DNA of 64,000 bases, from the NCBI GenBank assembly GCA_020205615.1, contig CM035163.1:46717652-46781651 (forward strand), written 5' to 3'. Position 1 is the first letter of the stretch. Each line of letters begins with the position of its first letter. The position numbers and the translations under genes were made by a program. This DNA is from Panax quinquefolius (Eukaryota; Streptophyta; Magnoliopsida; Apiales; Araliaceae). The notes beneath the pieces were generated by a model. It made no database searches and had not been told where the DNA came from. It was given only the letters and a program-made list of their open reading frames with translations. Shown here one piece after another: positions 6,150 to 63,374 of the stretch.

Positions 6150-7778
6150 AGACTTCCTTCATTAGACTCATCAGTGTGTTCCTCTGATTCCTGGCTTGTA
6201 GAATCTTTTTCCATCTCATCAACTTCTTCTTCAGCATCTTCTTCCGCGAATTCAAACTCATCATCACTTAAGTCAATGACAGCATTGAAGTGTTCTCCCA
6301 TCCTTTTTGAGATAGATTTAGCAAATAGTCTATTTATTTTTCTTCTTATTGGCTGGTCAGCTATGGGGGTTTCAGACTTTTCTTCTTCTTCAGAATCTGA
6401 AGCCTCTGTATCACCATATAAGCTTTCTTGATGATCAACAATAGTGGGAGCATATCCTTCTTCCTCAGACCCAACATCTTTTAAACCCTCAAATGAGCTT
6501 GTTGGAGCATTAACAGTGGGAGATCCAATTGTTTCATCTTTCCCACTTTCTTCAGCAGCAGAGTGACAACTCTGAGTGTTAGCCACAGGACTTGCACATT
6601 CTTCTTCACCATCAAATTTGGCTATTTCTTTCATAGACTCAGCTTCTTCTTCATTGCTGGACTTTCTCTTTGAGAGTTCAATCTTGAAGCTCTCAGTTCC
6701 CTTCTCATTTTTAGACTCTACGTCTTCTCTTTCTTCTTGAGTAGATAGGCTACTTTGAGGAACTAGAACTGACTTCTTCATCACCTTTGTTTTCTTCTTC
6801 GGTGGCCCTTAGAGTAATCTGTTACTCCTTCTTCTCTTTGGGGTTTTTGTAGTTGAAACTTTTTCTTCTCTTGTTTCATGCCTTTTTTTGTTAGTGGAGA
6901 GACGGATAGATGGAGTCTTTGTATTCTTCCCACTCTTAGACTTCTTCTTTACTGGTGTGGCTGCTACCGATCCAGAGTCATCAGATTGAGAGCTTTCCAC
7001 CTCTTGTGAGACAGAGACCTTGCTACTACTCCCAGTTGTTATTAGCATCTTGTTTTCCTTGGGATTTTTCTTCCAATTTTCGAACAACTGTGGGGACATT
7101 ACTTTATGAACATTAAGAATTTCACCCTCATCATCCTTAATTTTATTCTTCAACTTTTTCTTCAAGATGATACTTAAAAACCTTCCATGGAAAACCTTTG
7201 TGAGAGGTTTTTGAGCTAACCTTTTCTTCTCTTCCTTATCCAGCCATTTGGAAATTTGATTAAGCAGGATAGCTCCAAAGTTGATGTGTTCCTTCAAGAC
7301 TATTGCAGACATGATCTTTAGCTGTTGATCAATCACAGTGTCATGTGCAGTGTCTTTGCATAGGATACACTTGCCCACTATTTTAGCAAGGAACTTGAAT
7401 TATTCAAGAAACTCCTTTTTTCTTCATGTCCTTCATACTAGGGTTTCTTTTGTACTGCATAATTTTCTTAGCTTTCTCAGTGTCGATCTCATCCAGGCTT
7501 TTTAGATCTTGGTCAGGAAGGCCTAAGCATTGATTGATGTCAGAAGAATTTAGCTTCAGAATTTGACCCTTAACCTTGGTGGAGAGGATTCCAGAATTTA
7601 TGGTTGCGTTTGAGTGAAACTCTTTGACCAGGTCACTATATATTCGTGTGTTTGCCTCAAGACATTCAAAGAATCTGGCCTTCTTTATGAGTTCAAGAAC
7701 ATCTTTGAACTTCTTCTCAGATTTCTCAAAAGTCTTTGTTCCGAGCTGAATGATAGTGATTACTCGCCAATCTGCCAT
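6150..7778 (-). pseudogene. N-terminal part of broken retroelement ORF, NLS-like
   Basis: Starts at an ATG at 7778 (MADWRVITIIQL) after an unspliced leader-like region. 7404-7778 gives 124 aa of globular-looking sequence (IYSDLVKEFHSNA..., NQCLGLPDQDL). It shifts frame into 6809-7378, a Ser/Lys-rich segment ending KRRRSNRLL; one stop later the same frame continues (6137-6784) through an NLS-like GPPKKKTKV and a long acidic Ser/Glu-rich stretch with DLSDDEFEFAEEDAEEEVDE. The first 120 residues recall the 'putative plant transposon protein' ORFs found next to plant retroelements; that is a resemblance, not an identification. The solo LTR at 3110-6141 cuts the ORF and supplies the local stop. 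Confidence 0.45.
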
Positions 7779-8901
7779 TTGTAGAGTTCGAAGTATATGG
7801 GTATTTAATTTCAGATGACTAATAAGAGGTAGCTGAGCACAATTAGAGCGAAGCTTGAGCTTTGATAGATTTAGGCTTTGAAGAGAGTTTTAGGGTTTGA
7901 ACAAGGGAGGGAGAGAGAGGTTCGATAGCTTTTGATAACTTGTTCAAAGGTTTTGGCTGTTTAGAGGTAGCTAGGTTTTGCCTTAGGTATAGATTTGACA
8001 GGTTTGTAGAGTTTTGAAGAGCCTGCTAAGATGAAACTGCCAATTATTTGAATTTTCCTCTTGTAATTGTTCCTTCCACGTTTCTTAGTGGGATAGTTGT
8101 AAGTTGCTGATAAGCCATCATCTATAAGTCCACCATCATGTCCGTTCTTTAGATTTGACTTTTCTTCTGTTGACTATTTCAGTATGTAGAGTAGCTTGTT
8201 AAGGCAGCTATTGACTCTACGATTTTCTTCGTCGACTCAACGATCATCTTCTGAGAGATGCTTCAGTGGATGATTGGACATTAATCCTCATCTAGAAGTT
8301 GCATGACTTAACCACTGATGTATTCCGAGGCAGTTCGGGCACTGAAATTCCGAGGTGATTTTTCAGGGCGTCTTTCCTAGCTGAATTTGAACTTATCTCC
8401 ACACTATCTGAATAGTTGAGCATGTGCCCATTTCCTTTGAGCTCTCCATGAGCTAGTGTGTCCTTTGGGAAGACTGCAATCGTCAAGGCTACTCTACGAT
8501 CTTTGAGTTTGCACTATGATCGTTGAGTTTACTTTAGAATTTATTCTACGATCGTTGTCTATCCTGGTCCTTGAGATGAACTAGACTAAGCATTCCTTCT
8601 AGGTTAAGGTAGCTAAGGAAGGGCCAACCTCTTAGAATGAACTAAGGGTCAGGTTTGTCCTTAAGGCGCTTTCCAGATGAAAAACTTTAGAAGTGATTAG
8701 TACTAATATCTCATTTGATCTTTTCTGCTAGGAAGTTCATCTACCAACTTTAGACATTTGCATTGGTTGTAATCGTGGTGTTCTCTTGCTCTTATACTAC
8801 GATCAAATGGTTGATCGTAGGCACTCCATGATTTTGAGTTGCGTGGTTGACAAGGTTATCAGTAGTACATTTTGAGACGTTCCTACTGACTATGGATCTT
8901 C
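7779..8901 (-). other. leader and LTR-like region of the same retroelement
   Basis: Non-coding. 7779-8040, read on minus, is a pyrimidine-rich leader-like stretch ending at the ATG at 7778. From about 8200 to 8830 the CTACGA-type motif reappears (for example ACTCTACGAT near 8214 and 8490), as in 1-1130, which suggests the matching LTR or promoter region on the 5' side of the element. I could not align it base by base to 1-1444, and no primer-binding site was recognised. Confidence 0.3.
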
Positions 8902-8904
8902 ATT

Positions 8905-9190
8905 CACTACTACAAAACAGTAAATAAATAACGCGGAAAAAACGTTGTGGTTTCAATCAGAAAAATGTCATGGTTAAGGGTGTTATCTATTTGACACCCT
9001 TACATAAAGTTTTTAAAACGTTGTAGTTAAGCACATTACACAACATTTTTAAGAAAAAAAGTTATAGATTTGTTATTCATATATTAGCAGATGCTTAAAA
9101 ACGTTGTAGAAGATATGATTCCACAACGTTTTCTGGATAAAAACGTTGTAGAAGATATGATTACACAACGTTTTTAAAATGTTGTAGATT
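8905..9190. repeat. left subterminal repeats of the CACTA-like element
   Basis: Many direct and inverted copies of AACGTTGTRG and its complement, including two near-identical 35-bp blocks around 9097-9132 and 9139-9174. Such arrays are the transposase-binding subterminal repeats of CACTA elements. The matching right-end array lies at about 12588-12780. Confidence 0.6.
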
Positions 9191-10100
9191 AAAAAAAAGA
9201 AAAAAAAGGTTGATTCACCTACATTACTAATGCACCTGCAATATGCTAATGCCATGATATATAGCTAAAAGGTCTAAATTCTCATTTAAATTTAAAGCCA
9301 AAATATATCAACCATTCAAAATATATTCCAATAATACCATTCGTGTAATTCAAATTACTACATCCACAAAATATATACCAAACTATCATATATGCTCTAC
9401 ATGTAGCTGCTCACATACGTTGCCCACTCATCCCGTACTTCGTCAAAGTATCATATATGCCTTCAATACTATCATCTTTCATGCAAATCAGGAAGCAGCT
9501 ACTCAACTCAACTGCCAAGAATAGCAAGAGAGCTATATCAGCATGCTGTTAAAAATTATATCATATCAGTCCATGAACCACATAAGACAATAAGGCAGAA
9601 AAACTCAAGGGAGTATAATATATGCCTTCAATACTAATGCTTGTAGCATTGGATCAATATCTACAAACATAAACACTTGTAGCATTGGATCAATATCTAG
9701 GATCAATATATGTATAACATGTATAACAACAAACATTACCAGAGATGATCCAGCAAGTCAAGTAAGGATTACTTTCTATTACCAGAGCATGCACACACAA
9801 ATGATATTCACCAGCAGCTGATGTCCTGCAACATAGGATCATCATATACTACTAGATGCAACAGCTTAACCCAGCAATAAAGTTTGACTGAAAGGAAGAC
9901 TAGGTGAAAGGAAGAAACATAAAGACTAGAAAATTTGACTACTATACCTCAACTTGTCATTGCAGTGATTGAACATAATTAATGATTTCATCAAGCATAA
10001 CTGCTTTGATTTGTTAAGAAATGAAATGCAAAAAAACCATCAAAAGTATATTTTTTACTAAAGATTTCTTTATGAGACCTTAAAATGCAATGACTAACCT

Positions 10101-10273
10101 TGCTACCACCTTGATCTTCATGCTGCTTGGGGCCAAAGCAGTGATTTCTTTGTTCATTCGGTCAGCAATGCCTGGGAACATGGTGGTTTCATGAATTCCT
10201 GCAGCTTCTCCTTCATAGTAAAAATTTTTACTACCTTTTCCCCTGTTCTGTTGTCTTGCACAAACCCATGAAC
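10101..10273 (-). pseudogene. captured actin fragment, internally deleted
   Basis: Minus-strand frame from 10208 to 10101 encodes 36 residues running [18 protein letters not shown] then [18 protein letters not shown], unmistakably actin subdomain 3. In real actin about 26 residues lie between EAAGIHETT and the [13 protein letters not shown] segment; here they are missing and the join falls on a repeated TT (ACCACC), so a microhomology-mediated deletion is likely. The fragment is preceded in the same exon-like block (10273-10209) by sequence that is not actin and follows a good acceptor (TTGGCAG at 10274), and it ends at a donor-like AAGGTTAGT. It cannot make actin: no nucleotide-binding regions are present. 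It lies inside the CACTA-like element. Confidence 0.8.
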
Positions 10274-10423
10274 CTGCCAATACAGTTATATACAATCAGT
10301 ATAGTGTGGCAAGGAGAGGAAAAATGAACTCTAAATGATCCACAAAGTTGGAACTCACAAATGAAGCAAGTAAACAAGTGGTGAAAAATATAGAAGAGCA
10401 CAGACATTTAAGAATGTACATAC

Positions 10424-10537
10424 CTGATTCTTAAAAGTGGCTTCATGCTCAAGCATTTTTTGTTTTAATGCGTCCTTCTCATACCCTGGATATACATCTG
10501 TGATGGTCCTAAGCACGAAGCCATTATAGTACTCCAT
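10424..10537 (-). pseudogene. captured exon of a DUF863-family gene
   Basis: Minus-strand 38-codon open stretch from 10537 reading EYYNGFVLRTITDVYPGYEK and then KQKMLEHEATFKNQ, ending exactly at a splice donor (CAG followed by GTATGT). The pattern YYNGF...YPGY-KD...MLEHEATFKNQ is the conserved N-terminal segment of plant DUF863 proteins, nuclear proteins of unknown role in which it is normally followed by VYELHRLYR. Only this exon is present, and the continuation is absent downstream. The assignment rests on my recall of the family. The exon is in the same orientation as the actin piece 150 bp further on, so one transcript could contain both. Confidence 0.6.
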
Positions 10538-11176
10538 TATAGTATTCTTTATTCAATAAAAGCTACTCAAAATTACTTTGCAATATATTAAGAGAAAGCA
10601 GTGGTGAAATCAAAAAATAATAAGCAGTTTATACTTCCTTGATAAAGATTGAGCCTTAATGAACTACAACATACAATAAGATTTTTAATTTGTCAGAATT
10701 GTTATAATACCACATTGACAGAACTTGGGTCATGGGAATGTAAAAGTTACATCATGCTGAACAAAATAGGCATAAATGAAGAGTTACTCCATGTTTGCAA
10801 AGTCACGATCTAAAAAGTATGAGTTCAAAAGAGGGGAAGGGGGAACACCTACTGGTGCACTAGTACTTATGCCGAGAGATCTGGAGAAAAGTATATCAAT
10901 CATGTTATGTTAATTGTTTAGTCTCATGTTATATCAATTACTTTCAACAGCTAAAAGATATTCAGTATTATGTATAATAACTCCTTAAGGTAAACTTCGT
11001 AAAGTAAATTGATATACATAGTACTAATAACAGTTTCTTACCTCTGTTATGGCAGTAGTCATAAATTAATATATCACATTAATCAAGGTGTCAACACACA
11101 ACTTCAAAAAAATATAATGTCATATAATGCATTAAATAAACCAGAAATTACCCAAGAAAAATGATGAAGATATTAC

Positions 11177-11256
11177 CCATACTTGCAGAGGTTCAACATT
11201 CTATCTTCACAATCAATGTAAAGGCTATCAATAGATGATGTTTGATTCAAAGAAAC
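11177..11256 (-). other. possible captured exon, unidentified
   Basis: An 80-bp minus-strand open stretch (translating VSLNQTSSIDSLYIDCEDR, then MLNLCKYG) bounded by an acceptor-like TTTAG and a donor-like GTAATA. It lies inside the CACTA-like element in the same orientation as the actin and DUF863 pieces. I do not recognise the source gene, and the exon boundaries are inference. Confidence 0.3.
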
Positions 11257-12078
11257 CTAAAGAGGATAATTCATTATAAGAGGCAAAAGTATAAGCACAG
11301 AGAGAATCACACAGTTGCTACTTTAGTTTCATTAGCCCCAGGAATATATGAATCACACAGTGCTCTTTCCAGTGTCGGTGTTCCACGGTAAAAGTTTTGG
11401 ATAGAAGGTGTTCCACAGTAAATTGAACTCAAACAAAAAAATGTTGTGTAAAGATGCTAAACCTTGGTGAATATTAAAAGGTTAAATTTTTAGAGCAGCT
11501 TTGAAGAGATGGAACATGGTCTCAGCATCAGTCACTCTCTTTTGAAATTGAAAGGAGCACACTTTCAAAAAAATTCATCCATAACCTGCAGCTACCTATT
11601 GAGGTACAGGTAGTTACAATTTCTCCCTAGCTAGCTTTTCTCCTTTGCTATGCTTGCTATTCATTTACACAAATCTTCATTTGCTCAAGGTGCTTAACAA
11701 TATTTCAAGCAAGAAACAACTATACTTCACTAAAATAATCATTAAGCTCCATAGACTGGCAAACATACTCTGCATTGATCTTGTAAGATATATGGCTTGA
11801 CAACATGTCCTAGCCTACAAACTCCTATGAAATGACATTAACATTCATCACTTATAGACAACCATTCGCATGTCTCATCTAAGAGCTTTTATTTCTTTTC
11901 ATAGAAAAAGAAATTTAATTAGAAAAGCAGAAAGAGTATAAGCCTCCTGAGAAAGCAGAACAGAAGAGAAAAACAATTGTTTCTTTAAAACATGAACAAG
12001 TATAACTATAATTGACAACAATTTTTTTTTAAAAAAAAAAATAGGACAAAATATATAATATTGGCAGATCAAGATTCA

Positions 12079-12453
12079 TTAGAGATCGGAGCGATGAAAA
12101 ATTGAGGCACCTGAACGAGCCAGAGGGAAGTTGTACCGGCAGCGACGCCTCACATGATGGCCGACTGAACGTCGATGGCTTGGGGGCGCATCCTTGGCGT
12201 GAACAAGTGACCGATCTTCATCCAGCAGCTTCCGCACCTGTGGAGGGCCCAAACTAAACTTTTTAGCAGCCATCAGAAAACCTTTAAGAAGGGATTTAGG
12301 AATAGAAGGATTTGATTCAAGAATACTCATAGAGTTAAGGGTTTTACCCTTTGATGTTTTCCCTCTATGTTTCATGCACTGAGAAGAAACCCCAAAATTG
12401 ATACCCAGTCTCTGGCGAAGCCGATTCGAACAACGTTTAGGCTTGGGAGCCAC
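12079..12453 (-). CDS. 124-aa basic hypothetical protein of the CACTA-like element
   Basis: Complete minus-strand ORF beginning MAPKPKRCSNRLRQRLG near the right end of the element, where a transposon-driven transcript would start. The product is basic (Lys/Arg about one fifth), with no signal peptide or membrane segment and no family I recognise. A splice acceptor-like CCACAG occurs at codon 75 or so, and base composition becomes clearly more GC-rich from there (12080-12240), so the ORF may itself be a fusion of two captured fragments. It could be exon 1 of a chimeric transcript running into the pieces at 11256, 10537 and 10273. Confidence 0.35.
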   Translation of the reverse strand: MAPKPKRCSNRLRQRLGINFGVSSQCMKHRGKTSKGKTLNSMSILESNPSIPKSLLKGFLMAAKKFSLGPPQVRKLLDEDRSLVHAKDAPPSHRRSVGHHVRRRCRYNFPLARSGASIFHRSDL

Positions 12454-12800
12454 TATCGATCCTTCTTCCTTTGAACTGGTTGACGAGATCGAGACGGGTT
12501 TGAGAGTGAGAGAGAAGACAGGCTAAGGTTTTGGGCTAAAGAGAGTGCTAGCGTTTTATTTTAATTTCAAATTCACCTCCGCGTTTTTTTTAACCTCCGT
12601 GTTTTTTAGATACATAATATTTTTTTCAAAAAAACGTTATCTAGTTAAAATCAAAAATTACATTTTTTAAATAGATAACGTTTTTTCATATATATTTACA
12701 ACATTTTGTTAAAAAACGTTGTGGAAAAAAATACCACAACATTTTTTATAAAAATATTGTGGTTTAAGTGTTGTTTATTTACTACTTTGTACTGGTAATT

Positions 12801-21550: not shown

Positions 21551-23331
21551 TGTTGGGTAAATTCTATATACGCTCACACGCAAGTATACGTGGTCAACAG
21601 TTAATAAAGTGATAAGTTGAGTATCATTCCCACAGAGAATTATTTAATAAAAATCACCAAATACTAACCCATAACCAACTCAATCTTATTTAAACGAATG
21701 AATTTCAAATTATATAAATTAAACTACTATTAAATTCCACTACTTAAATTAAGATTACGGAGATTTAAGATCACAACTTCACTTATTGCTTCATTTAAGT
21801 TAACACACTTCTCATCAATTATTCTCTATCCCAAATTGTTAATCAAGAACACTAAAACAGACAAAACCATCTCTCGATGCAAAATACCCATACTCACTTA
21901 AATCCACAGATGATAGAATTAAGCAAGACACCCTAATTAACTAATCCACTATATCTCTATGTGAATTATAATTAAAAAGGATTTAAAGCACAAGTTCTCT
22001 ATAAGATTACATATGGCGTAAAGGCATATCTCTATCCTAAACACGAATCATGAATTCCATCTATGTAGAAATCACAACCACATGCTATCATGATCAGATC
22101 TAAATCAATACTTCATCTCTCGAGTTCAAATAGATTATCACGGTAATTGATGGCCAATCAATTAAGCAAATAATTCCAAATCACAATAGACAATCCTCAC
22201 AATATAACATAATAATTGATAGCGAATCATATTAAAATAAACTACACAATAAGATCCATTGTAATCTCAAACAAAGAATTAGTTCATTGAATTAAAACTA
22301 AGAATCCACACTTGAATAAACAATAAAAGACAAAGATAGAAGAAGATGAGAAGATAGAATCTATTGTCTGTAGATTTGATGCTCTCTCCTTCCTCCTACT
22401 TTGAATCTTCAATGGTCTCCAAGTTGCTTCAATCTCCAAAAACTCTTTAGAACTAGTGTTTTGATCTAATTTACCCTAATCTAATCTAGTGGAATCATAT
22501 TTCTCCTCTAATCTCCTTTCTAATCCTTGTTATTCTCCTCCTTTTATAATCCTTTTTATATGTCTGTAAGTCCTCTTGGAAGTCCTTGAGTCAATTGGAT
22601 CGAAACAATCCTTTCCAAACTCAAATTTGGACAAAAACTGGCTTTTCTGCGCATACCCCCGCCCCGGCAGGGTCCTAAGGCTTAAAGGGCCTGCCCCGGC
22701 GGGGATACCTACTATTTTGTAGCTGTTATGCCCGCCCCGGCGGGGGTCCAATTTCTACCACAGCGTCCTCTGGTAAAACGGCCATAACCTTTGATTCGGG
22801 AGGAGTTACGGGGCCTATGACCTATCAAATCGAAGCTATCGACGAGCTCTAAAACTTTCATTCTTTGAGATTTGAGAAATTCTGGACGGAACAAAATCTA
22901 AATAGAGCTTGAAGTAGATGCTATGTAAATTGCAAGCACGAGAACTCTTAGTTTTGATCTTCGTTGATAAAAAGGCCATAACTCTCGCATCCGAACTCCG
23001 ATTGGGATGATTCAAAATGTTTCAGAAAGCTAAGAAGAAGCTCTACAGTATAATCTAAGTTCAAAGCCAAGAACATGCATCCAAATTTGTGTTAAAAGTC
23101 CTTCAATCTTCCCTTCTTGCATTTACTTGCATATTTTGGTCCAATGGATGTCCGAATTGCTTTTCTTTGCGTTTTCCTTGCTTTTCCTTACCAATAGTCG
23201 CTCACACCACTCCCAAACATATAGCCTATAAAATGAACATAAAATGCATGAAAAGTAACTAAGACACATGAATATAAGCAACTAATTTAAGTAACAGATA
23301 CCGAATAAGTAGGTATAAAACCTACTTATCA
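21551..23331 (-). repeat. 5' LTR of element E
   Basis: 1,781 bp. It holds a GC-rich island at 22649-22757 with three variants of GCCCCGGCGGGG inside otherwise AT-rich DNA, which the 3' LTR lacks. Confidence 0.85.
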
Positions 23332-24600
23332 AGCTTTCCTCTCTTTCCAAATCTCATAACTCGTTTCCATGGAACAACATGTAATAATACATGATCTCCA
23401 ATATTGAATTCCACGTCCTTTCGATGAAGATTAACATAACTCCTTTGTCGATCTTGTGAGGTTTTTATACGTTGTCGGATCGTTTGAATCTTTTTCGTAG
23501 TCATACGTACCAACTCTGGTCCCAACAACGTTGCTTCACCCACCTCATCCCAGCATACTGGAGAACAACACTTTCTTCCATACAACGCCTCAAATGGAGC
23601 CATGTCAATACTTGCTTGATAACTGTTGTTGTAGGAAAACTCCACCAATGATAAGAACTTGTCCCAACTTCCTTTGAAGTCAAGGACACAAAGTCTTAAT
23701 AAATCTTCAAGAGTTTGAATAGTCCTCTCCGACTGCCCGTCCATTTGAGGATGATATACCGAACTAAATCATAAATCCGTGCCCATAGCTTTTAGCAAAC
23801 TAACCCAAAATCTTAAAGTGAATCTTGGGTCTCGATCAGAAACTATGGATACTGGCATATCATGAAATCTTACAATCTTGTTTATGTACATATGAGCAAG
23901 ACGTTCAAGTGTATAAGTTTCTCGTATCTGTAAGAAATGAGCAAACTTGGTCAATCTATCAACAATGATCCAAATCGCATCTATGCCTTGAGAAACCTTG
24001 GGAAGACCAGTAACAAAATCCATGGTAATGTGCTCCCACTTCCATTCTGGAATTTTAAGTGGTTGCAATGGACCTTTTGGCACTTGATGCTCGAATTTGA
24101 CTTCGTTGACAAGTTAGACACCTTGAGATAAACCCCGCTATCTCTTTCTTCATATTGCTCCACCAAAATGTATGTCAAAGATCACGATACATTTTGGAAC
24201 TCCTAGGATGGATTGCAAACGGTGTGTTGTGTGCCTCCATCATGATTTTATACTTCAAGTCAGAATCATTAGGAACACAAAGTCTGGAGTTGACTCGAAG
24301 TATTCCTTCTTCATCGATTCTTACTTCCAGAATAGCACCTTCTTGCACTTTCTTCCTCATACGCATCAGCTCCAGGTCTGTAGCTTGACCAGCTTTAACT
24401 TTATCGATTAAAGTCGGTTCTACTCATATATTCGCCATCATCACGTGGGTCCCTGAAGTCTTTAACTCTATCTCCATCCTTTGCAAGTCATACAAAATTG
24501 GCCTTTACATTGACAATAACGCACTCGTACCTGCATATGATCTTCTTCTCAATGCGTCAGCTACCACGTTCATTTTTCCAAGGTGGTATTGAATGGTATG
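23332..24600 (-). pseudogene. element A integrase (zinc finger and catalytic core)
   Basis: Minus-strand frame covers the HHCC region (HNTPFAIHPRSSKMYRDL...FISRCLTCQ) and the DDE core: first Asp in WEHITMDFVTGLPK, second in IVSDRDPRFT, and the DGQSERTIQTLEDLLR stretch carrying the Glu. The C-terminal GDHVLL region ends at the E insertion (GKRGK). It is interrupted by in-frame stops (for example before HTFWW near 24174 and after KAMGTDL near 23766). Integrase would insert the cDNA into the genome; this copy cannot. Confidence 0.85.
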
Positions 24601-24639
24601 ATTATAATCTTTTAACAGTTCGAGCCAACGTCGTTGCCG

Positions 24640-25708
24640 CATGTTGAGCTCCTTTTAAGTGAAGAAATATTTGAGGCTTTTTATGATTCTTATAGATCTC
24701 CACCTTCTTTCCATACAGGTAATGCCTCCAAATCTTAAGCGCAAAAACGACAGCTGCCAACTCTAGATCATGAGTAGGATAATTCCTCTCATATTCTTTG
24801 AGTTATCATGAGGCATAGGCTATGACTTTCCCATGTTGCATGAGAACACATCCTAAACCTTCGCTTTGAGCATCATCAGATATGACAAATCCCTCCGAAC
24901 CAGATGGTATTGTCAGAACAGGTGCTGAAATGAGTCTCCTCTTGAGTTCTTGAAAACTCTTCTCACATTCCTCGCTCTAACCAAATTTTGTATCTTTCCG
25001 AGTCAGCTGAGTTAATGGAGTAGCAATTCAAGAAAATCCTTCCACAAATCTCTGATAATAACTAGCTAAGCCCAGAAAGCTACGTACTTCGGTCACTGAC
25101 TTAGGTTGCTCCCAGCTTTGAATTGCTTCAATCTTTGCCGGGTCAATAGATATTCTATGATTTGATATCACGTGTCCAAGAAATGCTGCTTCCTCAAGCC
25201 AGAACTCCCATTTCTTCAACTTGACATATAGCTTGTTTTCACGAAGCTTTTGGAGTACCAGCCTCAAGTGTTGCTCATGATCTTCACGGCTTTTGGAGTA
25301 AATGAGGATGTCATCAATACAGACGACCACAAAGTGATCCAAATATTCCTAGAATACTCGGTTCATCATCTCCATGAAGGCAGCAGGAGAATTAGTCAAT
25401 CTAAAAGACATGACTAGGAATTCGTAATGCCCGTACCGAGTTCTGAAAGCAGTCTTTGGAATGTTATTAGTTTTAATCTTTAATTGATGATATCTAGAAC
25501 GAAGATCGATCTTTGAAAAGAATTTGGCACCTTGTAACTGGTCAAACAGATCATCAATTCGAGGTAATGGGTACCTATTTTTTATGGTGACATGATTCAA
25601 CTCCCGATAATCAATACGAAGTCGCATACTTCCATCTTTCTTCTTCACGAATAGAACATGAACACCCCAAGGAGACGTACTAGGATGAATGAAACCGATG
25701 TCTAACAA
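24640..25708 (-). pseudogene. element A reverse transcriptase and RNase H
   Basis: RT is readable from [16 protein letters not shown] through [33 protein letters not shown] and [15 protein letters not shown] (active-site IDD kept, preceding Phe changed to Cys), then the connection [16 protein letters not shown]. RNase H remnants run to about 24640. Stops at 25346-25348 and 25709-25711 and several frame breaks downstream disable it. Confidence 0.85.
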
Positions 25709-25711
25709 TTC

Positions 25712-26470
25712 CTATAGTTGGGTTTTTAACTCCTGAAGTTTAATAGGAACCATTCGATATGGGGCTTTGGAAATGGGTTTTGTACCGGGTTCGAGGTCGA
25801 CACAAAATTTAATTTCACGCTCTGGGGGTATTCTAGGAAGTTCTTCAGAGAATACGTCAGGAAATTTATTAACAATAGAAATATCAGTCAAATCTGACGT
25901 ATTTTTATTTAAATCCGTGACATGGGCTAAGAAAGCTTGACATTCATTTTTCAATAAACGAATATCTTTATGGCTTGATATGACAGTGATTAACTTTAGT
26001 GGTTTCGCTGCTTGAATTCGCATAATAGGTTGGTTAGGAATATAAAAGCTAACCACCTTACGAAAACAATCGATTTTTGCAGGATGAGTAGTTAACCAAT
26101 CAATCCCTAAAATCACATCAAATGTAAGTATTTTCAAAGAGATAAGATCGATAGGTAACGTGCGGTTATCGATTTGAATCAAACATGACTTATAAACAGT
26201 GGATGTAATGAAGGTTTCTCCTAATGAAGTTTCAATAGATAAATAAAAGTCTAATTTCTCCGGAGTTAAATTTAAACGTTGAGCGCAAGTAGGAGAAATA
26301 AAAGAATGGGTAGAACCGATATCAAATAAGGTATAGACTTCGCTAGAGTTTATGATTAGCTTACCTGTGATCACCTCGTTCGAATTCCTTACTTTTTGGG
26401 AGGTTACAACAAACGCTCTCCCTTGAACTATCGATTTTGTCTTGTTTGGGACACCCTTTGATGCCTCCAT
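25712..26470 (-). pseudogene. element A aspartic protease region
   Basis: 252-aa open stretch. The active-site string is LFDIGSTHSFIS where a working retroviral-type protease has DTG or DSG, so the catalytic triplet is altered (Thr to Ile). Downstream VILGIDWLTTHPAKIDC and the linker into RT (FPDVFSEELPRIPPEREI) are typical of plant chromoviruses. Confidence 0.85.
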
Positions 26471-26479
26471 CCCAGTTGG

Positions 26480-27473
26480 ACTTAACTTTGGTGCACGACA
26501 AAATCGGGCTAGGTGACCTTCTCTTCCATAATTATAACATACTTTGGATTATTGCATATAGTTTGGACTGATGTGTCCCTCCCCTCCGCATTTGTAACAT
26601 ACGACTAGCGGTCGTTCTCCTTCCTTAACAACAAGTTCTGGTGCTGACGTCTTTCCATCATTATGCAATTCATACAACATCAGGAGAGAGCGACTTGTCG
26701 GCTGCTCTCTCTGGGTTGGGTTGACTCATTATCGCGCTCCAATAACTGAGCCCTATTTACAACATCTGAATACAAACACAGTTTGAGAGAAATTAGGTAT
26801 TGACATATCTAAGGTTTCAAACCTCTTAGAAACATCCGCGTCATTCTCTCCTCATTATCAACCAAGTGGCACGTAAACTGGGACAACTTGGCAAACTTAG
26901 CTTCGTACTATATGACATAGTCATATTGTTTTGCTTTAGTTTGATGAACTCTACCTCCTTCATGTGACGAATACTTTCGGGAAAGTACTTGTCGTTGAAC
27001 AGTTCTTGGAACTTCTCCCAAGACATCTTTAGTGTGGCAGGCTGAGTACGCTTTACAGATTCCCACCAGTAATCTGCCTCTCCTCGCAACATGAAGGTGG
27101 AAAAGGGAACCTTTTGCTCCTCAGAGCATCCCAAGACATCAAATATCTTGGTGATCTGCTTTATCCATGTCTCTGCCTTAAGTGGTTTTGGCTCTCCCAA
27201 AAACTCCGGTGGTCCCATCTCCTTGAACTGTTTAGCGGTGATCGTCCGAGAGTTGCCAGTGTTTCCACCCACATTTTGAACAGGAGTCGTTCTCTCCTGA
27301 TGTTGTATGAATTGCATAAAGTCTCTGAACATCCCATCGTTCATCATTTGATCGGTGTTGTTGTTAACCTGAGGATTATTGTCTTCCTGTTGCGCATTAT
27401 CCTGGGTATTGATCGTTGGTGACTCAACGGTCTCATGTGCTTCATTGCTGATCTCAAAATTTTCAGATGTCAT
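26480..27473 (-). pseudogene. element A gag
   Basis: Starts MTSENFEISNEAHETVES at 27473. Contains the retrotransposon gag core (PPEFLGEPKPLKAETWIKQI, then FDVLGCSEEQKV and ADYWWESVKRTQP...FQELFNDKYFPESIR) and two CCHC knuckles near 26500-26607. The first has lost its last Cys ([14 protein letters not shown]) and the second has Tyr for its second Cys. A frame break near 26841 separates the two halves. Confidence 0.8.
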
Positions 27474-41923: not shown

Positions 41924-42095
41924 TTAGGGATGATCCCTGGCTGAGATGTAAGGCAAGAACTAGGAGGGGAGAGACGGGGGAATTCCTTCACTAATATGAC
42001 CTACCTAAGTTTCTTTGGTATTTAATTGGTCGGTCAGAGTATAGGGATAATATGTGATATGTTAATTAACCCTTGTTTTGTTTCAGTATTTGAAA

Positions 42096-43196
42096 ATGGC
42101 ATCCGAAAATGTTGAGATAATCAATGAAGCACGTGAGACCGTTGAGTCACCAACGATCAATGCCTGGGGTAATGTGCAACAGAAAGACAATAATCCTCAT
42201 GTAAACAATAACACCGATGAAATGGTGAGCGATGGGATGGTCGGAGGCTTTATGCAATTCATGCAACATCGCCAAGGCGGCTCTCATCCAAAATGCGGTG
42301 GAAACAACGACTCACTCACTCGGTCACCGCTAAGCGATTCAAGGAGCTGGGACCACCGGAGTTTTTGAGAGCCAAAACCACTAAAAAGGCGGAGACGTGG
42401 ATAAAGCGGATCAACAAGATATTTGATGTCTTGGGATGCTCCAAGGAGAAAAAGGTTCCTTTGCCACCTTCATGTTGCGTCGAGGCGATTCTTGGTTGGA
42501 ATCTGTAAAGCGTACTCAACCTGCCTCACTGAAGATGTCTTAGGAGAAGTTCTAAGAGCTATTCAACGACAAGTACTTTCCTGAAAGTATTCATCACATG
42601 AAGGAGGTAGAGTTCATCAAGCTTGAAAGCAAAACAATATGGCCAGTGGCGCGATGCTGAAGCTAAGTTTGCGTTTTTTCTCGGTTTCGTCCCCTCTTGG
42701 TTGATAATGAGGAGAGAATGATCACGAATGTTTTAAGAGGTTTGAAACCCGAGATACGTCAATACCTTATCTCTCATAAACTGTGTTTGTATTCGGATGT
42801 TGTGAATAGGGCTCGATTATTGGGCGCGATAATGAGTCAACCCAACCAAGAGAGATCGGTAGATAAGTCGATAATACCGGTGGTAGCGATCATCGAGCGG
42901 TGACAACAAACGTGGAGGAATCAACATGCTTAGAAATGATAACCACTTTGGTGGTAATCATGGCCAAGACAATAGGAGTGGAAAGTTCAAGAAGAAGGTT
43001 CAATGAAGATGGAAAGATGTTAGCACCAAAGACCATTGTTAAGGAACAAAAAGCACCATGGCCGTATATGTTACAAATGTGGAGGGGAAGGACACATAAG
43101 TCCAAACTGCACGATGCAGTCCAAAGTATTTTATAATTGTGGAAAAGAAGGCCACTTAGCCCGATTTTATCGTGCATCAAAGTCAAGTCCAACTGG
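42096..43196 (+). pseudogene. element B gag
   Basis: Starts MASENVEIINEARETVES at 42096, shifts frame near 42300 (the GPPEFLRAKTTKKAETWIK segment is in another frame) and again near 42500-42700. Zinc knuckles lie at about 43060-43180: [14 protein letters not shown] is intact, while the second reads [14 protein letters not shown] with first and last Cys lost. Confidence 0.8.
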
Positions 43197-43197
43197 G

Positions 43198-43770
43198 ATG
43201 GAGGCATCTAAGGGTGTCCCAAACAAGACAAAACTAGTAGTTCAAGGGAGAGCATTTGTCGTAACCCAAAAAGCGAGGAATCCGAACGAGGTGATCACGG
43301 GTAAGCTAATCATAAACTCTAGTGAAGTTTATACTTTATTTGATACCAGTTCTACCCATTCCTTTATTTCTCCTACTTGCGCTCAACATTTAAATTTGAC
43401 TCCGGAGAAATTAGACTTTGACTTATCTATTGAAACTCCGTTGGAAGAAACCTTCATTACATCCACGGTTTATAAGTCTTGTTTAATTCAAATCGGTAAC
43501 CGCATGTTACTTGTCGATCTTATTTCTTAAAAAATACTTGCATTCGATGTGATTCTAGGGATTGATTGATTAACTACTCATCATGCAAAAATTGATTGTT
43601 TTCGTAAGGTTGTTAGCTTTCATATTCCTAACCAACCTATTATGCAAATTCAAGCAACCAAACCATTAAAATTCATCACTGTCATCTCAAGCCATAAAGT
43701 TATTCATTTATTGAAAAACGGATGTTAAGCTTTCTTAGCTCATGTCACAGATCTAAACAAAAATACGTCA
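43198..43770 (+). pseudogene. element B protease region
   Basis: [20 protein letters not shown] through [12 protein letters not shown] (Gly of the DTG triplet replaced by Ser) and [18 protein letters not shown]. Stop at 43528 and further breaks up to the RT linker. Confidence 0.8.
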
Positions 43771-43773
43771 GTT

Positions 43774-45090
43774 TTGAATGATATTTCTATTGTTAATGAA
43801 TTTCCTGACGTATTCCCGGAAGAACTTCCTAGCCTACCCCCAGAGCGTGAAATTGAATTTTGTATCGATCTTAAAACCGGTACAAAACTCATTTCCAAAG
43901 CCCTATATCGAATGGATCCTATTGAACTTCAGGAGTTAAAAACCCAACTACAGGAATTGTTAGACATAGGTTTCATTCGTCCTAGTACGTCTCCTTGGGG
44001 TGCTCCTATTCTATTCGTGAAGAAGAAAGATGGAAGTATGCGACTTTGTATTGATTATCGGGAGTTGAATCATGTCACCATCAAAAATAGGTACCCGTTA
44101 CCCTCGTATTGATGATCTGTTTGACCATTGCAAGGCGCCAAATTCTTTTCAAAGATTGATCTTCGTTCTGGATATCACCAATTGAAGATTAGAACCGATG
44201 ACATTCCAAAGACGGCTTTCAGAACTCATTACGGGCATTATGAATTCCTAGTCATATCTTTTAGATTGACTAATGCTCCTACTTCTTTCATGGACATGAT
44301 GAATCGAGTATTCAAGGAATATTTGGATCACTTTGTGGTCGTCTTTATTGATGACATCCTCATATACTCCAAAACCCGTGAAGACCATGAGCAACACTTG
44401 AGGTTGATACTTCAAAAGCTTCGTGAAAACAAGCTATATGCCAAGTTGAAGAAATGTGAGTTCTGGCTTGAGGAAGTTGCATTCCTTGGGCACGTGATAT
44501 CAAATCATGGAATATCTATTAACCCGACAAAGATTGAAGCAATTCAAAGCTGGGAGCAGCCTAAGTCAGTGACCGAAGTACGTAGCTTTCTCGGCTTAGC
44601 TGGTTATTATCGGAGATTCGTAGAAGGGTTTTCTCGAATTCTTACTCCATTAACGCAATTGACGAAAAGATACAAAATTTGGTTGGAGCGAGGAATGTGA
44701 AAGAGTTTTCAAGAACTCAAAAGTAGACTCATTTATTTTGTTACGACAATACCATCCAGCACGGAGGAATTTGTCATTGTGATGATGCTTGAGCAAAGGG
44801 TTAGGATGTGTTCTCATGAAACATGGGAAAGTCATAGCCTATGCCTCACAACAACTCAAAGAATATGAGAGGAATTATCATACTCATGATCTAGAGTTGG
44901 GGCATTGCTATCGTTTTTAACTTTAAGATTTGGAGGCATTACACATATGGAGAGAAGGTGGAAATCTATCTGGATAATAAAAGCCTTAAATATTTCTTCA
45001 CCCAAAAGGAACTCAACATGTGGCAACGACGTTGGCTTGAGTTGTTGAAAGATTATGATCATACCATCCAATACCATCCTGGAAAAGTGA
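43774..45090 (+). pseudogene. element B reverse transcriptase and RNase H
   Basis: 43774-44112 and 44128-44700 together hold the [35 protein letters not shown], then [14 protein letters not shown] with the catalytic IDD intact, and [18 protein letters not shown] one-base-type frame break lies at 44110-44128. RNase H (44700-45090) is heavily damaged, with YHPGKVNVV at its end. Confidence 0.85.
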
Positions 45091-45296
45091 ACGTAGTAGT
45101 TGGCGCGTTGAGTAGAAGATCATATGCGATGCGAGTGCGATATTGTCAATCTGAAGGCCCATTTTGTATGACTTACAAAGGATGGAGATAGAGTTAAAGA
45201 CTCAGGGACCCACGTGATGATGGCGAATATATATGAGTAGAACCGACTTTAATCGATAAAGTTAAAAAGTTTGGTCAAGCTACAGACCTGGAGCTG

Positions 45297-46719
45297 ATGC
45301 GTATGAGGAAGAAAGTGCAAGAAGGTGCTATTCTGGAAGTAAGAATCGATGAAGAAGGAATACTTCGAGTCAACTCCAGACTTTGTGTTCCTAATGATTC
45401 TGACTTGAAGTATAAAATCATGATGGAGGCACACAACACACCGTTTGCAATCCATCCTAGGAGTTCCAAAATGTATCGTGATCTTTGACATACATTTTGG
45501 TGGAGCAATATGAAGAAAGAGATAGCGGGGTTTATCTCAAGGTGTCTAACTTGTCAACGAGTCAAGGCTGAGCATCAAGTGCCAAAAGGTCCATTGCAAC
45601 CACTTAAAATTCCAGAATGGAAGTGGGAGCACATTACCATGGATTTAGATTCTTGGTCTTCCCAAGGTTTCTCAAGGCATAGATGTGATTTGGGTCATTG
45701 TTGATAGATTGACCAAGTCTGCTCATTTTTTACCGATACGAGAAACTTATACACTTGAACGTCTTGCTGGTATGTACATAAACGAGATTGTTAGATTGCA
45801 TGGTATGCTAGTAGCCATAGTTTCTGATCGAGACCCAAGATTCACTTCAAGATTTTGGGTTAGTTTGCAAAAAGCTATGGGCACGGATTTACGATTTAGT
45901 TCGGCATATCATCCTCAAACGGATGGACAGTCGGAAAGGACTATTCAAACTCTTGAAGATTTATTAAGACTCTGTGTCCTTGACTTCAAGGGAAGTTGGG
46001 ACAAGTTCTTACCATTGGTAGAGTTTTCCTACAACGACAGTTATCAAGTAAGTATTGGCATGGCTCTATTCGAGGCGTTGTATGGAAGAAAGTGTCGTTC
46101 TCCAGTATGCTGGGATGAGGTGGGTGAAGCAACGTTGTTGGGACTGGAGTTGGTACGTATGACTACGGAAAAGATTCAAATGATCCAACAACATATAAAA
46201 ACCTCACAAGATCGACAAAAGAGTTATGCTGATCTTCATCGAAAAGTCGTGGAATTCGATATTGGAGATTATGTGTTGTTACGTGGTGCTCTATGGAAAG
46301 GAGTTACAAGATTTGGAAAGAGAGGAAAGCTTAATCCTCGATTCATTGGCCCATTTTTAATCATCGATCAAGTAGGAAATGTGGCCTATAGACTCGCCTT
46401 ACCACCAAGTATGTCTCGTGTTCATAATGTTTTTCACATATCTATGTTACGTAAATATGTGAAGGACCCGAACCACATTATTGAATTAGAACCAGACTAG
46501 ATAGAGGAAGATTTAACGTATGAAGAGTTACCTGTTAAAATCTTGGATAAGAAGGATCATATTCTACGCTCCAAGGTTATACCTCAAGTTAAAGTTTTGT
46601 GGAGAAACCACGATGTGGAAGAAATGACCTGGGAGTTAGAATCTGAGATGAAGTCAAGATATCCTCACCTCTTTGATATACCAGGTACGTACCCTAATTT
46701 TGAGGATGAAATTTCATAA
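45297..46719 (+). pseudogene. element B integrase with chromodomain
   Basis: HHCC region at 45430-45570, damaged by a stop after MYRDL (45486-45488); core 45600-46110 with frame break near 45650 (MDLDSWSS instead of MDFVTGL) but IVSDRDPRF and TDGQSERTIQTLEDLL present. 45685-46500 is open for 271 codons, ending at a TAG (46498-46500) just before the chromodomain EEDLTYEELPVKILDKK...VLWRNHDVEEMTWELE, which reaches about 46719. Confidence 0.85.
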
Positions 46720-46730
46720 GAAGGGGAGGT
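46718..46730 (+). other. polypurine tract of element B
   Basis: AAGAAGGGGAGGT directly before the 3' LTR start at 46731. Confidence 0.75.
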
Positions 46731-48986
46731 TGTAAGACCCCAACTTTTATGAATAAAGATTTATTTCTCTCGAAATATATTTTTGAATATTATGGTGTGG
46801 ATATGATATAATGTTATAGTTTTGGGTAATATTTACAAAATTTGCAAAGTAAACAAGTGGTTATATAATATTCAATTGGTCGAGGAATATTCGTTTTAAC
46901 AAGGAATATTCATACGACGACACAATCATTGGTGGACCCCACAATGAAAGTATTGTTGTAGTAAGAAAATGACAGAATTATCTTTTTATAAAAATAACGG
47001 TAGGAAGTGTATTCTGTTTAAAATTGTTGAACTACCCGGTAGTAAAAATGCGATGTCTGGCGTGGTTGTATAGTAGCACACGGTATTGGTTATTGATCTT
47101 TACGTAAGAAGTCACTCGGTTATACTCAATTATTACTACGATAATTCTTTGCATCATATCACTCGTATTATTGATTCGGATATTGTCATAGTATCATCTG
47201 CATAATATGATATATTATTAAATCAATAATTGAGGCGACAAAGTTGTTCATATTATTAAATTGCAATATTTACAATGTCAGAAGTTACATCGATGAGAGG
47301 TTTGGTCACCTAATTGCGCTTTTGATAGGGAAATCCTTATTGAAAGCCCCTCTTTCTGAGGAGCGACACGGTTGTTAAATATTATGAGTTATAATATTAA
47401 TGATGAATAAGTTCGTGTTGATTATAGATGAATTTGATAGTTCCATTGTGTTGAAATTATTTGTGTTAGTGAAAATCGACTTTTATTTCGATAATAATTG
47501 ATGTCTGGAGGATATATTGTTCAATCGGGTATTCGGGGCACTTTTTGTATCGGAGTACTATTCACGAGTTCTTATTCACGGAGTTCTTATTCATCCGATT
47601 ACTATTCACTCTAGTATTATTCACTCGGTATTTGGGACACTTTTTAGGTATTAGGTACTATTCACACGGGTTACTATTCAAAGTAATATTCACGGTACTA
47701 TTCACCCGAAAAATATATTTCTTTTTGGTCCAAATCATTTTTGGGTACAATATTATTCCATGAGGAGATGTGCTAATTTTTCAGACCATTGGTTGAAATT
47801 ATAATAGTTAATCAATATGGATCGTTGGTTTAAAGTTTTAATAGTAAATCAATATGGATCGTTGGTTTAAAGTTTTAATAGTAAATCAATATGGATCGTT
47901 GGTTTAAAGTTTTAATAGTAAATCAATATGGATCGCTGGTTTAAAGTTTTAATAGTAAACCAATATGGACCGTCCGTTTAAAAGTAAATCAATCTGGACC
48001 GTTCATGAATTAGTTACTATTCATTCCATTCTCTTATAAATAGAAGCTCATTCCTTCATTATTTCTTATGAATTCACTGAAACTCTAGAGAGAGAAATTA
48101 TAGAGAGAAAGAAGAAGAGAAGTTTGCTACCTCACTTTTCCAATATCCAGTTCTTCTAAGGTAAGGGGTATTATTTCTTTCGTATTCATGAAGAGAACTT
48201 ACATTATTCCATTCTTTATTATTACATTGGAATAACTTTTGTATCGTGAGACTCCCGTATACTTGGTGAAATTCTTACATTATTCCATTCTTTATTATTA
48301 TGCTTGAATAACTTTGTCCATCATGAAGTACCTCATACATGGTGAAATTCTTCTTTTATTTCATTCTTTATCATTATGTTGGAATATCCTGTCGGTGCGT
48401 ATTACGCTGACTGGTTCCATTAATTATTATTCTATTGGAATAACTATATCATGCGATCTATCGAATGTATGGTGATTTACATTTGTTATTCCATTCTTTA
48501 TTATTACATTGGAATATCACATTGTCTGCGAATTTCTTTGACACAGTTCCATTAATTATTATTTTGTATGAATAACTTTTATGCATGCGATTACATAGCA
48601 TGCATGGTGATTTACATTTGTTATTCCATTCTTTATTATTACATTTGGAATATCACAGCCGGTCTTGATTTACGCTTTAACTTTGGTTCCGTTTCTTTAT
48701 TATTACGCCGAATATCTTGTGCGTAACGTTTATGTATGACTGGTTCCATTCTTTATTATTACATTGGGAATAACTTTGCATATGCGATCTATCGCATACG
48801 AATAATGAATCATACATTATTCCATTCTTTATTATTACATTGGAATAACCTATCTATGTGGATTACCACATGCATGGTGAATGATCCTTTGTATTCATTT
48901 CTTATTAAATTATGGAAATAATTTGTATACGTGGATTACCGCATGGCGGGCGAAAATCCATTTGCAGTTTCATATATTCTATTATA
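46731..48986 (+). repeat. 3' LTR of element B, truncated
   Basis: Follows the 5' LTR module order (TACTATTCAC array 47560-47710, 37-bp units, TATA box 48035-48043, 75-bp units) and ends abruptly at 48986, after which unrelated sequence begins. Confidence 0.8.
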
Positions 48987-53347: not shown

Positions 53348-54553
53348 ATATAAGCGTATTTCTTAAATAACACACCTCACTTAAATAATATATTTTTATT
53401 AAAAGTACTTCGTTTTGAAAATTCTTTTAAAAAATAAAATAATATTAAAAGAGAGTGATCTCACTTGCATTTCATTTATTTATAAAAATGCTACCCACAA
53501 TCCCACTTGTTTTTTAAAATAATCTTTAAAACGACATAGTTTTAATAAAAATATGCTATTTAAGAGAGTATACTTTAGATTTGTCCTCTGTATATATAAT
53601 ATTAACTTACATTAAAATTAAAAAAAAACTCTTGATGCATATATTTTTTTAAATGTTTATCAAACAACCCAAAACTTTTATTGTTTTCAATTTTGGGCAC
53701 CCATTAAGACCTAATCAAACAATCTTCTTGTAGTTCTCAAAAATCCTATCCAAACCTTAATAAATGTGAAAATTAAATATAATTTTCACATTTTAATCAT
53801 TAATAGGATAAAAAGAACAATCTTATTGCATACAAACCCTAATAAGTCAAAAAGAAGAAAAATAAAATTCTCAATTTTCACGGTTAACATACACTAAGCA
53901 CTTCTAAGGCATTTTGCAATTTTATTTCGTTTTATTTTAATTATTTTTTATATAAGTATTTCATAATTATCAGCCCAATCACGCGTTACATAATTTATTA
54001 TTTATTTTTTGCTTATTATAGAAAGAGAAGGATTTGGTTAGGTACATTCGAGACGGCCGAGGCGGCTGCAAGGGCATACGACGAAGCGGCCGTCTTAATG
54101 AACGGCCAAAACGCCAAAACAAATTTCCCGATCATCACAAAATCCGATAACTCAGATCTCAAGACGGATTCCCCCTCATCACCGTCCATTCTATCCGACA
54201 TACTTAGCGCAAAGCTCCGAAAATGCTGCAAGGGCACCGCACCATCGCTCACCTGTCTAAGGCTCGACACAGATAATTCCCACATCGGAGTGTGGCAGAA
54301 ACGCGCCGGCCAGCAGTCGGGGTCTAATTGGGTGATGAGAGTTGAGCTTGGGAAAAAGAATAAGGCACAAATATGCTCCGAAGAGGTATCGGTGTCGGAA
54401 TTATCATCGGTGTCGGAAGTATCGTCCGAATCAGTTTCGTATCCAGTGGGTGAGCAAATGGATGAGGAGAATAGAAATGCAATGCAAATGATAGAGGAAT
54501 TGCTTAATTGGAATGGTTCAACGCCTTCACTTGCTGCAAGGGGGAGTCTATGA
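52768..54553 (+). CDS. SHN: AP2/ERF transcription factor, SHINE/WIN1 clade
   Basis: Two exons, 52768-52847 and 54022-54553, separated by a 1,174-bp GT-AG intron; 203 aa. The start [20 protein letters not shown], the AP2 domain at residues 6-63 with the [19 protein letters not shown] core, and the intron directly after HPLL are all diagnostic of the SHN/WIN1 clade. So are the middle motif (residues 84-139: [14 protein letters not shown]...[20 protein letters not shown]...WVMRVELG) and the C-terminal [10 protein letters not shown] (182-190). Arabidopsis members are slightly shorter (about 190 aa). These nuclear factors bind GCC-box-type promoters and raise cutin and wax synthesis and affect epidermal cell-wall traits. 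The C-terminus carries a Ser/Val/Glu-rich run (148-166) and a short extension after the motif. Frame is intact and key DNA-contact residues (Arg8, Gly9, Arg11, Trp15, Trp18) are present, so it is probably functional. Which SHN paralogue it is cannot be settled here. Confidence 0.95.
52848..54021 (+). other. intron of the SHINE-type gene
   Basis: GTAAGT donor and TTATTATAG acceptor. Holds a CT-rich run (52858-52890), an AT repeat (52908-52931), a CA run (53284-53298) followed by a TA run (53300-53344), and no ORF or recognisable transposon. Confidence 0.85.
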
Positions 54554-56090: not shown

Positions 56091-56560
56091 CACTACAAGA
56101 AATCCGGCTATTTCTGACGGACGTATCCTCGACGGATTAAATTCGGTTGGAATAATCTTACTTCCAAGGGAATAATGCGTTGGTTATAAGTCCCTCAAAA
56201 ATAACGTAATTCTGACGGAATTCCGTCGAACTTAGACCTCTCCAATTGGCGCCAAGTTTCGCGCCATCGCGAAAACTAATTTCGACGAACAAACGTTAAT
56301 TCCGAGGGGCGTACTCGACGTAATTTTTTCGTCGAGATAACTTTCGTCGAACATAAGTTATTTCTGACGAACTTTCTGACAGAAATAATTCCCTCAGAAA
56401 TAATTATTTTTGACCGAATAATTGACGAAAATAAGCTCGACGATATTATATTCGTCCGAATTTTCGACGGACTATTCCGTCGGAAGTAATATCATTTTCG
56501 ACGGAATAACCTTAGTTCCGATGGACTAGTCCATCAGAAACAACCGGTTTTCTTGTAGTG
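56091..56560. mobile_element. CACTA-type MITE in the element C LTR
   Basis: 470 bp with perfect CACTACAAGAAA ends extending imperfectly to about 30 bp, and TTA duplications (56088-56090, 56561-56563). The interior is full of short GACGGA/TCCGTC-type repeats in both orientations, the subterminal repeats of CACTA elements. Its removal restores the LTR sequence. No ORF. Confidence 0.85.
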
Positions 56561-58602: not shown

Positions 58603-58744
58603 TTAGGGATATGATCCCTGGCTGATATGTGAGACTAGAACTAGGAGGGGAGAGATGGGTAATTCCTTCGCTAGTATGACCTACCTAAGTTTATTTATTA
58701 CTTAATTGGTTGGTCAGAGTATAGGGATAATATGTGGCATGTCA

Positions 58745-59850
58745 ATGACATTCGAGAATGTTGAGATAAGCAATGAAGCACATGAGACTGTTGAGTCACC
58801 AACGATCAATACCCAGGAGAATGTGCATTATGAAGGCAATAATCCTGAGGTAAACAACAACACCGACCAAATGACGAACGACAAAAAATGTTCAGAGGCT
58901 TTCTGAAATTCATGCAACATCAGGCGAGAGAGACTCCTGCCTAAAATGCAGGTGGAAACACTGGAAACTCACGGATGGTCACCGCTAAGTAGTTCAAGGA
59001 GTTGGGACCACCGAAGTTTTGGGGAAAGCCAGAACCACTTAAGGTGGAGACGTGGATAAAGCATATCACCAAGATATTTGATGTCCTAGGATGCTCCGAG
59101 GAGCAAAAGGTTCCCTTTACCACCTTCATGTTTAGAGGAGAGGCAAATTATTGGTGGGAATCTGTAAAGCTTACTCAACCTGACGCACTAAAGATGTCTC
59201 GGGAGAAGTTCTAAGAACTGTTCAACGATAAGTACTTTTTCAAAAGTATTCGTCACATGAAGGAGGTAGAGTTCATCAAGCTGGAGCAAAATAATATGAC
59301 CGTATCGCAGTATGAGGCTAAGTTTGTTGAGTTTGCCCGGTTTGCATCCCATTTGGTTGATAATGAGGAGAGAATAATGTGAATGTTTCTGCGAGGTTTG
59401 AAACTCGAAATACGTCAATACCTCATTTCTTAAAAATTGTGTTTACATATTCAGATGTTGTAAATATGACTTAGTTATTGGAGCACGATAATGAGTCAAC
59501 CCAACCAAGGGAGAGCAGCCGACAAAATGATAATACCAGTGGTAGCAGTCATCGAAGCGGTGACAACAAACGTGGAGGGAATTAACATGTCAGAAATGAT
59601 AACCACTTCGGTGGTAATCATGTCCAAGACAATAGGAGTGAAAATTTCAAAAAGAGGAGATTCAATAATGATAGAAAGACATCAACACCAATAATCATTT
59701 TCAAGGAAGGAGAACGACCACCCGGTTAGATGCTACAAATCTTGGAGGGAGGACACATCATTGGTATGCGCATCAATCTAAAGCGTGTTACAATTGCAGA
59801 AGAGAAGGTCACCTAGCTTGATTTTGTTGTGTAGTGAAGATAAGTCCAGC
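58745..59850 (+). pseudogene. element C gag
   Basis: ATG at 58745 (MTFENVEISNEAHETVES). A frame break near 58885 precedes the core (FWGKPEPLKVETWIKHITKI...ANYWWESVKLTQP), a stop lies at 59212-59214 and others follow. The knuckle region (59740-59830) is damaged: only pieces like CYNCRREGHLA remain. Confidence 0.8.
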
Positions 59851-59883
59851 TGGGGTGGTGACACCAAATGCCGTCCCAGACAA

Positions 59884-61700: not shown

Positions 61701-61879
61701 TGGCTCGAGTTATTGAAAGATTACAATCATACCATTCCATACCATCTTGGAAAAGCGAATGTGGTAGCTTATGCAAGTAAGAGTGCGATATTGTCAACGC
61801 AAAGGCCCATTTTGTACGACTTACAAAGGATGGAGATAGAGTTAAAGACTCCAGGGACCCACGTGATGATGTTAAATAT

Positions 61880-63363: not shown

Positions 63364-63374
63364 GAAGGGGAGGT
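63362..63374 (+). other. polypurine tract of element C
   Basis: AAGAAGGGGAGGT directly before TGTAAGACCCC at 63375; its first three bases overlap the pol stop codon TAA. Confidence 0.75.

Follow-up and report, generated by a model that had tools for sequence, protein, structure and literature searches.

A probably immobile CACTA-like element in Panax quinquefolius with apparently captured pieces of actin, DUF863-protein and QCR10 genes

Pieces of unrelated plant genes lie on one strand within 3,893 bp of Panax quinquefolius DNA, and the question raised by this locus is whether they were brought together by a single transposon of CACTA descent or in some other way, and whether anything is made from them. 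The stretch of DNA analysed (the window) comprises 64,000 nucleotides; all positions refer to it, and the features of the element are collected in Table 1.

The edges of the element read ATT-CACTACTACAAAACAG...CTTTGTACTGGTA-ATT. An ATT target-site duplication (TSD) had been predicted, with correct coordinates, and these 3 bp are repeated exactly at the edges of the terminal inverted repeats (TIRs). When the first 28 bases were compared with the reverse complement of the last 28, 22 of 28 were identical in an ungapped alignment, and agreement fell to 8/28 on a one-base shift. The value of 22/28 was equalled by 2 of 20,000 control pairs (window positions with the same spacing) and the gapped local score over 60 nt by 17 of 5,000 control pairs; taken alone, the TIR is good but not overwhelming. 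Among the marks of the CACTA superfamily, the left CACTA with the TIR, the 3-bp TSD and subterminal arrays at both ends were found, and an intact CACTA at the right end was not. The original prediction of CACTA-type ends thus held for the left terminus, which is a perfect CACTA, and for the TIR; it failed for the right terminus, which reads TACCA and shares three of five bases with CACTA. A right terminus of this kind makes it probable that the copy is decayed, and its sequence suggests the decay of an old copy, hence the wording 'CACTA-like, of CACTA descent' used here. The left-end 13-mer had no match in the literature searched.

A right end without a true CACTA and a gapped TIR score matched by 17/5,000 control pairs would also suit a locus with no single element, its termini having met by chance or come from different repeats; the 3-bp TSD placed exactly at the TIR edges, together with a subterminal motif shared by both ends, makes this extremely unlikely. 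For the latter, AACGTTGT or its complement was scored with at most one mismatch, overlapping offsets being counted separately. Inside the element, 14 matches were found in the left 300 bp, 8 in the right 227 bp and 3 in the 3,366-bp interior, and the flanks held 9 in 8,904 bp on the left and 59 in 51,203 bp on the right, which gives densities per kb of 46.7 and 35.2 at the ends vs 1.0 and 1.15 in the flanks (approximately 30 to 45 times denser). Away from both ends, a 300-bp stretch contained at most 3 matches. Since the motif is dense at both ends only, the termini belong together; the predicted subterminal repeats were accordingly recovered as arrays of one motif, and the check for termini derived from different repeats, once run, found both TIR and motif common to the two ends. 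BLAST self-comparison of the window (E ≤ 1e-5) additionally returned an internal 37-bp duplication in the element (9096-9132 and 9138-9174).

Table 1. Positions of the element and of its parts in the window
Feature	Position	Strand	Remark or basis
ATT target-site duplication, left	8902..8904		abuts left TIR
CACTA-like element, non-autonomous, 3,893 bp	8905..12797	- (strand of recognised cargo)	ends, repeats, no transposase domain found
Left terminal inverted repeat	8905..8932	+	starts CACTACTACAAAA
Left subterminal repeats	8939..9187		AAAACGTTGTGG-type, both orientations
Actin piece, 36 codons	10101..10208	-	PDB sequence search
Joining stretch, DUF863 to actin pieces, 59 bp	10209..10267	-	
Probable captured DUF863 intron, GT...AG, 150 bp	10274..10423	-	VH follows in phase
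DUF863-protein N-terminal exon piece (EYYNGFVLRTITDVYPGYEKDALKQKMLEHEATFKNQ)	10424..10534	-	protein search, tblastn
QCR10 (complex III 6.7-kDa subunit) fragment, in-frame TGA	12111..12197	-	PDB search
Open block (VAPKPKRCSNRLRQRLG...)	12241..12462	-	in 147-codon open frame 12082-12522
5'-UTR-like candidate stretch inside right subterminal region	12463..12560	-	sequence, composition
Right subterminal repeats	12629..12762		motif as at left end
Right terminal inverted repeat	12770..12797	-	starts TACCAGTACAAAG; 2/5 bases unlike CACTA
ATT target-site duplication, right	12798..12800		abuts right TIR

Three pieces of cargo were recognised, all on the minus strand as had been proposed. For the predicted 36-codon actin segment, a 40-residue query ending in the piece matched 109 distinct PDB sequences at E ≤ 0.001, the best among the matches listed being pollen F-actin (2e-13). 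The Pfam actin model matched the piece below its cut-off (20.5 bits vs 27); almost all of the score came from TTMFPG onward, and the first nine residues were matched separately, in the correct order, with 4.7 bits. Along the pollen actin chain, EAAGIHETT runs up to residue 274 and TTMFPG starts at residue 299, and the piece in the element is without 26 codons, in frame, between HETT and TMFPG (the Thr-Thr pair being counted once). A deletion between short repeats, namely the two Thr-Thr pairs, is the likely source of this gap. Both edges of the piece lie, on our assumption, away from the native splice sites of plant actin genes, and this too favours capture.

The DUF863 exon was searched as a 51-residue query (exon 10534-10424 plus the next codons), and eight candidates were returned. 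Five of these had E ≤ 1 (from Forsythia, Fraxinus (2), Olea and Lactuca), and PF05904 is present in 5/5, in agreement with the exon named in the original prediction; the best match had E 6.8e-9 and 74% identity across 76% of the piece. In this best relative Pfam places DUF863 at residues 151-1065 and the exon aligns to residues 49-89; the exon is thus N-terminal and outside the PF05904 model, and for this reason is not named by Pfam. When compared with the window by tblastn, the best relative reached 4e-12 at the exon and E 4.0 or worse at other places, and the best match of the other four off the exon had E 0.30. FKNQ is followed by VHELHRLY in all three relatives compared; in the element GTATGT...GGCAG comes directly after FKNQ, then GTTCATG (VH), and there similarity ends. 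This reads as capture of the exon, of an apparently whole intron of 150 bp and of the following exon's first few bases. Because the intron was apparently retained, the captured template was probably genomic DNA and not cDNA.

At least one further exon-like block had been claimed, and this region is better described in two parts, a QCR10 fragment and a separate open block. The QCR10 frame (minus strand, 12197-12111) reads PRMRPQAIDVQSAIM-stop-GVAAGTTSLWLVQ; the query was picked with the family in mind, and the stop was entered as X. All three PDB matches at E ≤ 10 (E 0.00069, 0.019 and 0.055) were of QCR10 type, under the names QCR10, cytochrome b-c1 complex subunit 10 and ubiquinol-cytochrome c reductase 6.7-kDa protein, and are presumably plant proteins; the TGA falls at a Trp conserved in all three. 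The fragment ends in CAG/GTGCCT, a possible splice donor. A 24-residue piece stopping before the TGA gave no match, and no candidate was returned for the QCR10 piece from a large protein collection. Since it was missed by these two other searches, its identity is good but the weakest of the three, and the case for QCR10 as a third captured gene, which had not been named before, is good but weaker. The open block is contained in an open frame of 147 codons, and mononucleotide shuffling produced such a frame in 2 of 2,000 cases. The block itself, upstream of the QCR10 fragment, had no relative in any of the searches made with it, one of which returned 13 candidates, none at E ≤ 10; it is possibly a further captured exon or an exon of the element's own.

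For detection of transposase and further cargo, all six frames of the element were searched with Pfam, stops being entered as X. No transposase domain was found at E ≤ 0.5, so that movement would need an enzyme from elsewhere; this lack is compatible with membership as a non-autonomous CACTA copy. Two matches were obtained at E ≤ 0.5, both below cut-off: actin (E 0.011) and Tom5 (E 0.14, and E 0.0022 on a short piece), the latter covering the end of the DUF863 exon and the intron and taken as chance. DUF4819, DUF7037, Sas-6, ribonucleotide reductase, DUF6726 and Dyp_perox_N, all seen with short pieces and below the Pfam cut-offs, were judged in the same way. Whole-frame PDB searches covered five of the six frames, the actin/QCR10 frame (8907-12797, minus) being searched as pieces only; four whole frames were without a match at E ≤ 1, and the fifth, a plus frame, matched cytochrome c1 (7 PDB sequences, best E 0.048), a match that is partly antisense to actin and was dismissed as chance. 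Rfam gave no match within the window. Outside the element, approximately 1 kb from its left end, an open frame (7404-7889, minus) has weak similarity to PF20167 (Transposase_32, putative plant transposon protein; E 1.4e-4, below cut-off).

The window as a whole has 34% GC and is plant-nuclear-like, with retrotransposon gag, protease and integrase-type domains and a partial AP2 domain. Neither another copy sharing these ends nor an empty site was found within the 64,000 nt, and in the BLAST self-comparison (E ≤ 1e-5) the flanks were without repeats before 14217, with no match of at least 60 bases starting left of that position. Three related retrotransposon copies (23331-26659, 42095-47088 and 58744-63729), with protease and integrase-type frames and many shared repeats around them, are 85-90% alike in pairwise matches. 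A second, unrelated miniature element of CACTA type (470 bp, 56091-56560, TSD TTA) has CACTACAAGAAA inverted at both ends, 31 of 40 terminal bases identical and internal GACGGAAT-like repeats; it is inserted in a retrotransposon-like repeat, and its joined flanks (680 bp) match three uninterrupted sites elsewhere in the window at full length with 79-83% identity. An open frame on the plus strand (53888-54553) holds the C-terminal half of an AP2 domain (E 1.3e-5, below the Pfam cut-off) and may belong, as one exon, to a gene for an ERF-type transcription factor.

In our reading, to which we assign a probability of about 0.87, 8905-12797 is a non-autonomous, gene-capturing element (Pack-CACTA) that is of CACTA (En/Spm) descent and can probably no longer move. 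As in a Pack-CACTA, pieces of host coding genes are present and no transposase was found; the proposal that several unrelated genes sit in one element is borne out by actin, DUF863 and QCR10, which share one orientation and are enclosed by matching ends. Past movement would have depended on CACTA transposase from another copy, binding at the subterminal repeats and cleaving at the TIRs. Host genes would have contributed genomic DNA, probably in separate events, either by neighbouring copies moving as one unit or by filler synthesis in repair; deletions, of which the 26 codons missing from actin are an example, would later have shortened the captured pieces, and the cargo would be passenger DNA. 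Pack-TYPE capture through mobilisation of neighbouring copies is described in the sections of PMC8903248 relied on here. Internal remnants of ends might perhaps be expected under fused neighbours, and that none stands out counts against this route: outside the subterminal arrays no remnant was found above background, the best interior scores being 22 for the left end (11415-11448) and 23 for the right end, with scores elsewhere in the window of up to 25 and 29. The stretch 11415-11448 resembles the left end of the element (ACAGTAAAT...AAAAAAATGTTGTG), its score being not above background.

The one orientation of all recognised pieces and the gap of only about 60 bp between DUF863 and actin would also be consistent with pieces already joined elsewhere, in a host chimeric pseudogene or in a Helitron or MULE, so that a CACTA element captured the block whole or formed around it. 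QCR10 and the open block, however, lie 1.6 kb from DUF863 and actin, with A+T-rich DNA between (31.6% GC), and a transposon domain inside the element was looked for by Pfam and not found; neither point is decisive, and we regard prior joining as unlikely. Uptake by the Pack-CACTA element itself, probably piece by piece, is retained as the preferred reading.

A different account of the same cargo is that of a young gene, transcribed from one promoter at the right end into a chimeric mRNA that is spliced and whose product is under selection. The C/T content of the minus strand near the right end is 58% in 12463-12560 and 70% in 12540-12481; plant 5' UTRs are frequently C/T-rich, and the single promoter proposed near 12500 is on this composition a candidate and no more. 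A promoter scan returned 5 sites vs 1.7 expected, with a model that is bacterial and uninformative for plant DNA. The 147-codon open frame (2/2,000 shuffles) and the GT-AG interval also fit such a gene, the DUF863 exon spliced onward giving 77 codons from the ATG at 10537 into the actin stretch. The actin piece is then read in another frame, which makes an actin fusion protein unlikely, and is internally deleted besides; the QCR10 piece is interrupted in frame by a TGA and uses a different frame from the 147-codon ORF. A young gene is therefore very unlikely. A functional fusion is likewise disfavoured and appears unlikely from the in-frame stop in QCR10 and from an actin piece that is out of frame and minus 26 codons. 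Read-through using the splice sites of the cargo could yield non-coding or short chimeric RNAs. It is highly improbable that transcription starts at the right end and gives a spliced chimeric RNA, or small RNAs made from it, with effects on the parental genes for actin, QCR10 and DUF863; if true, one transposon would couple a cytoskeletal gene and a respiratory gene in their regulation through such RNAs. Annotation pipelines may label the captured pieces as genes.

Comparison with known systems places the element in familiar company. Tgm-Express1 in the soybean wp allele is, in the portions of the report drawn on here, a CACTA element of 5.7 kb that carries five fragments of unrelated host genes; it is inserted in the second intron of a flavonoid gene, and its chimeric spliced transcripts were shown by RT-PCR (Zabala and Vodkin 2007, PMC1947982). 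As far as those portions describe it, the present element is like Tgm-Express1 in that CACTA ends enclose unrelated host gene fragments that keep exons and introns, and differs in the genes captured and in its degenerate right end; transcripts were shown for Tgm-Express1, whereas the present case is one of sequence. CACTA elements of Chenopodium, in the parts of PMC8978399 used, have captured fragments upstream of a kept transposon domain, 'TAD'; captured gene fragments are common to both, whereas no transposase-type domain was found here. With Pack-CACTA and Pack-TYPE elements, as presented in the relevant passages of PMC8903248 and of the review PMC13317346, it shares a CACTA TIR with TSD and coding pieces from more than one locus; the Pack-TYPE annotation outlined in PMC8903248 clusters elements and drops singletons, and the present element is one copy in view. 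Multi-gene capture by CACTA-like elements is already well documented, and the published picture of gene capture is unaltered by the present element, which is one more case of it, with an apparent intron retained and a deletion within one of its pieces.
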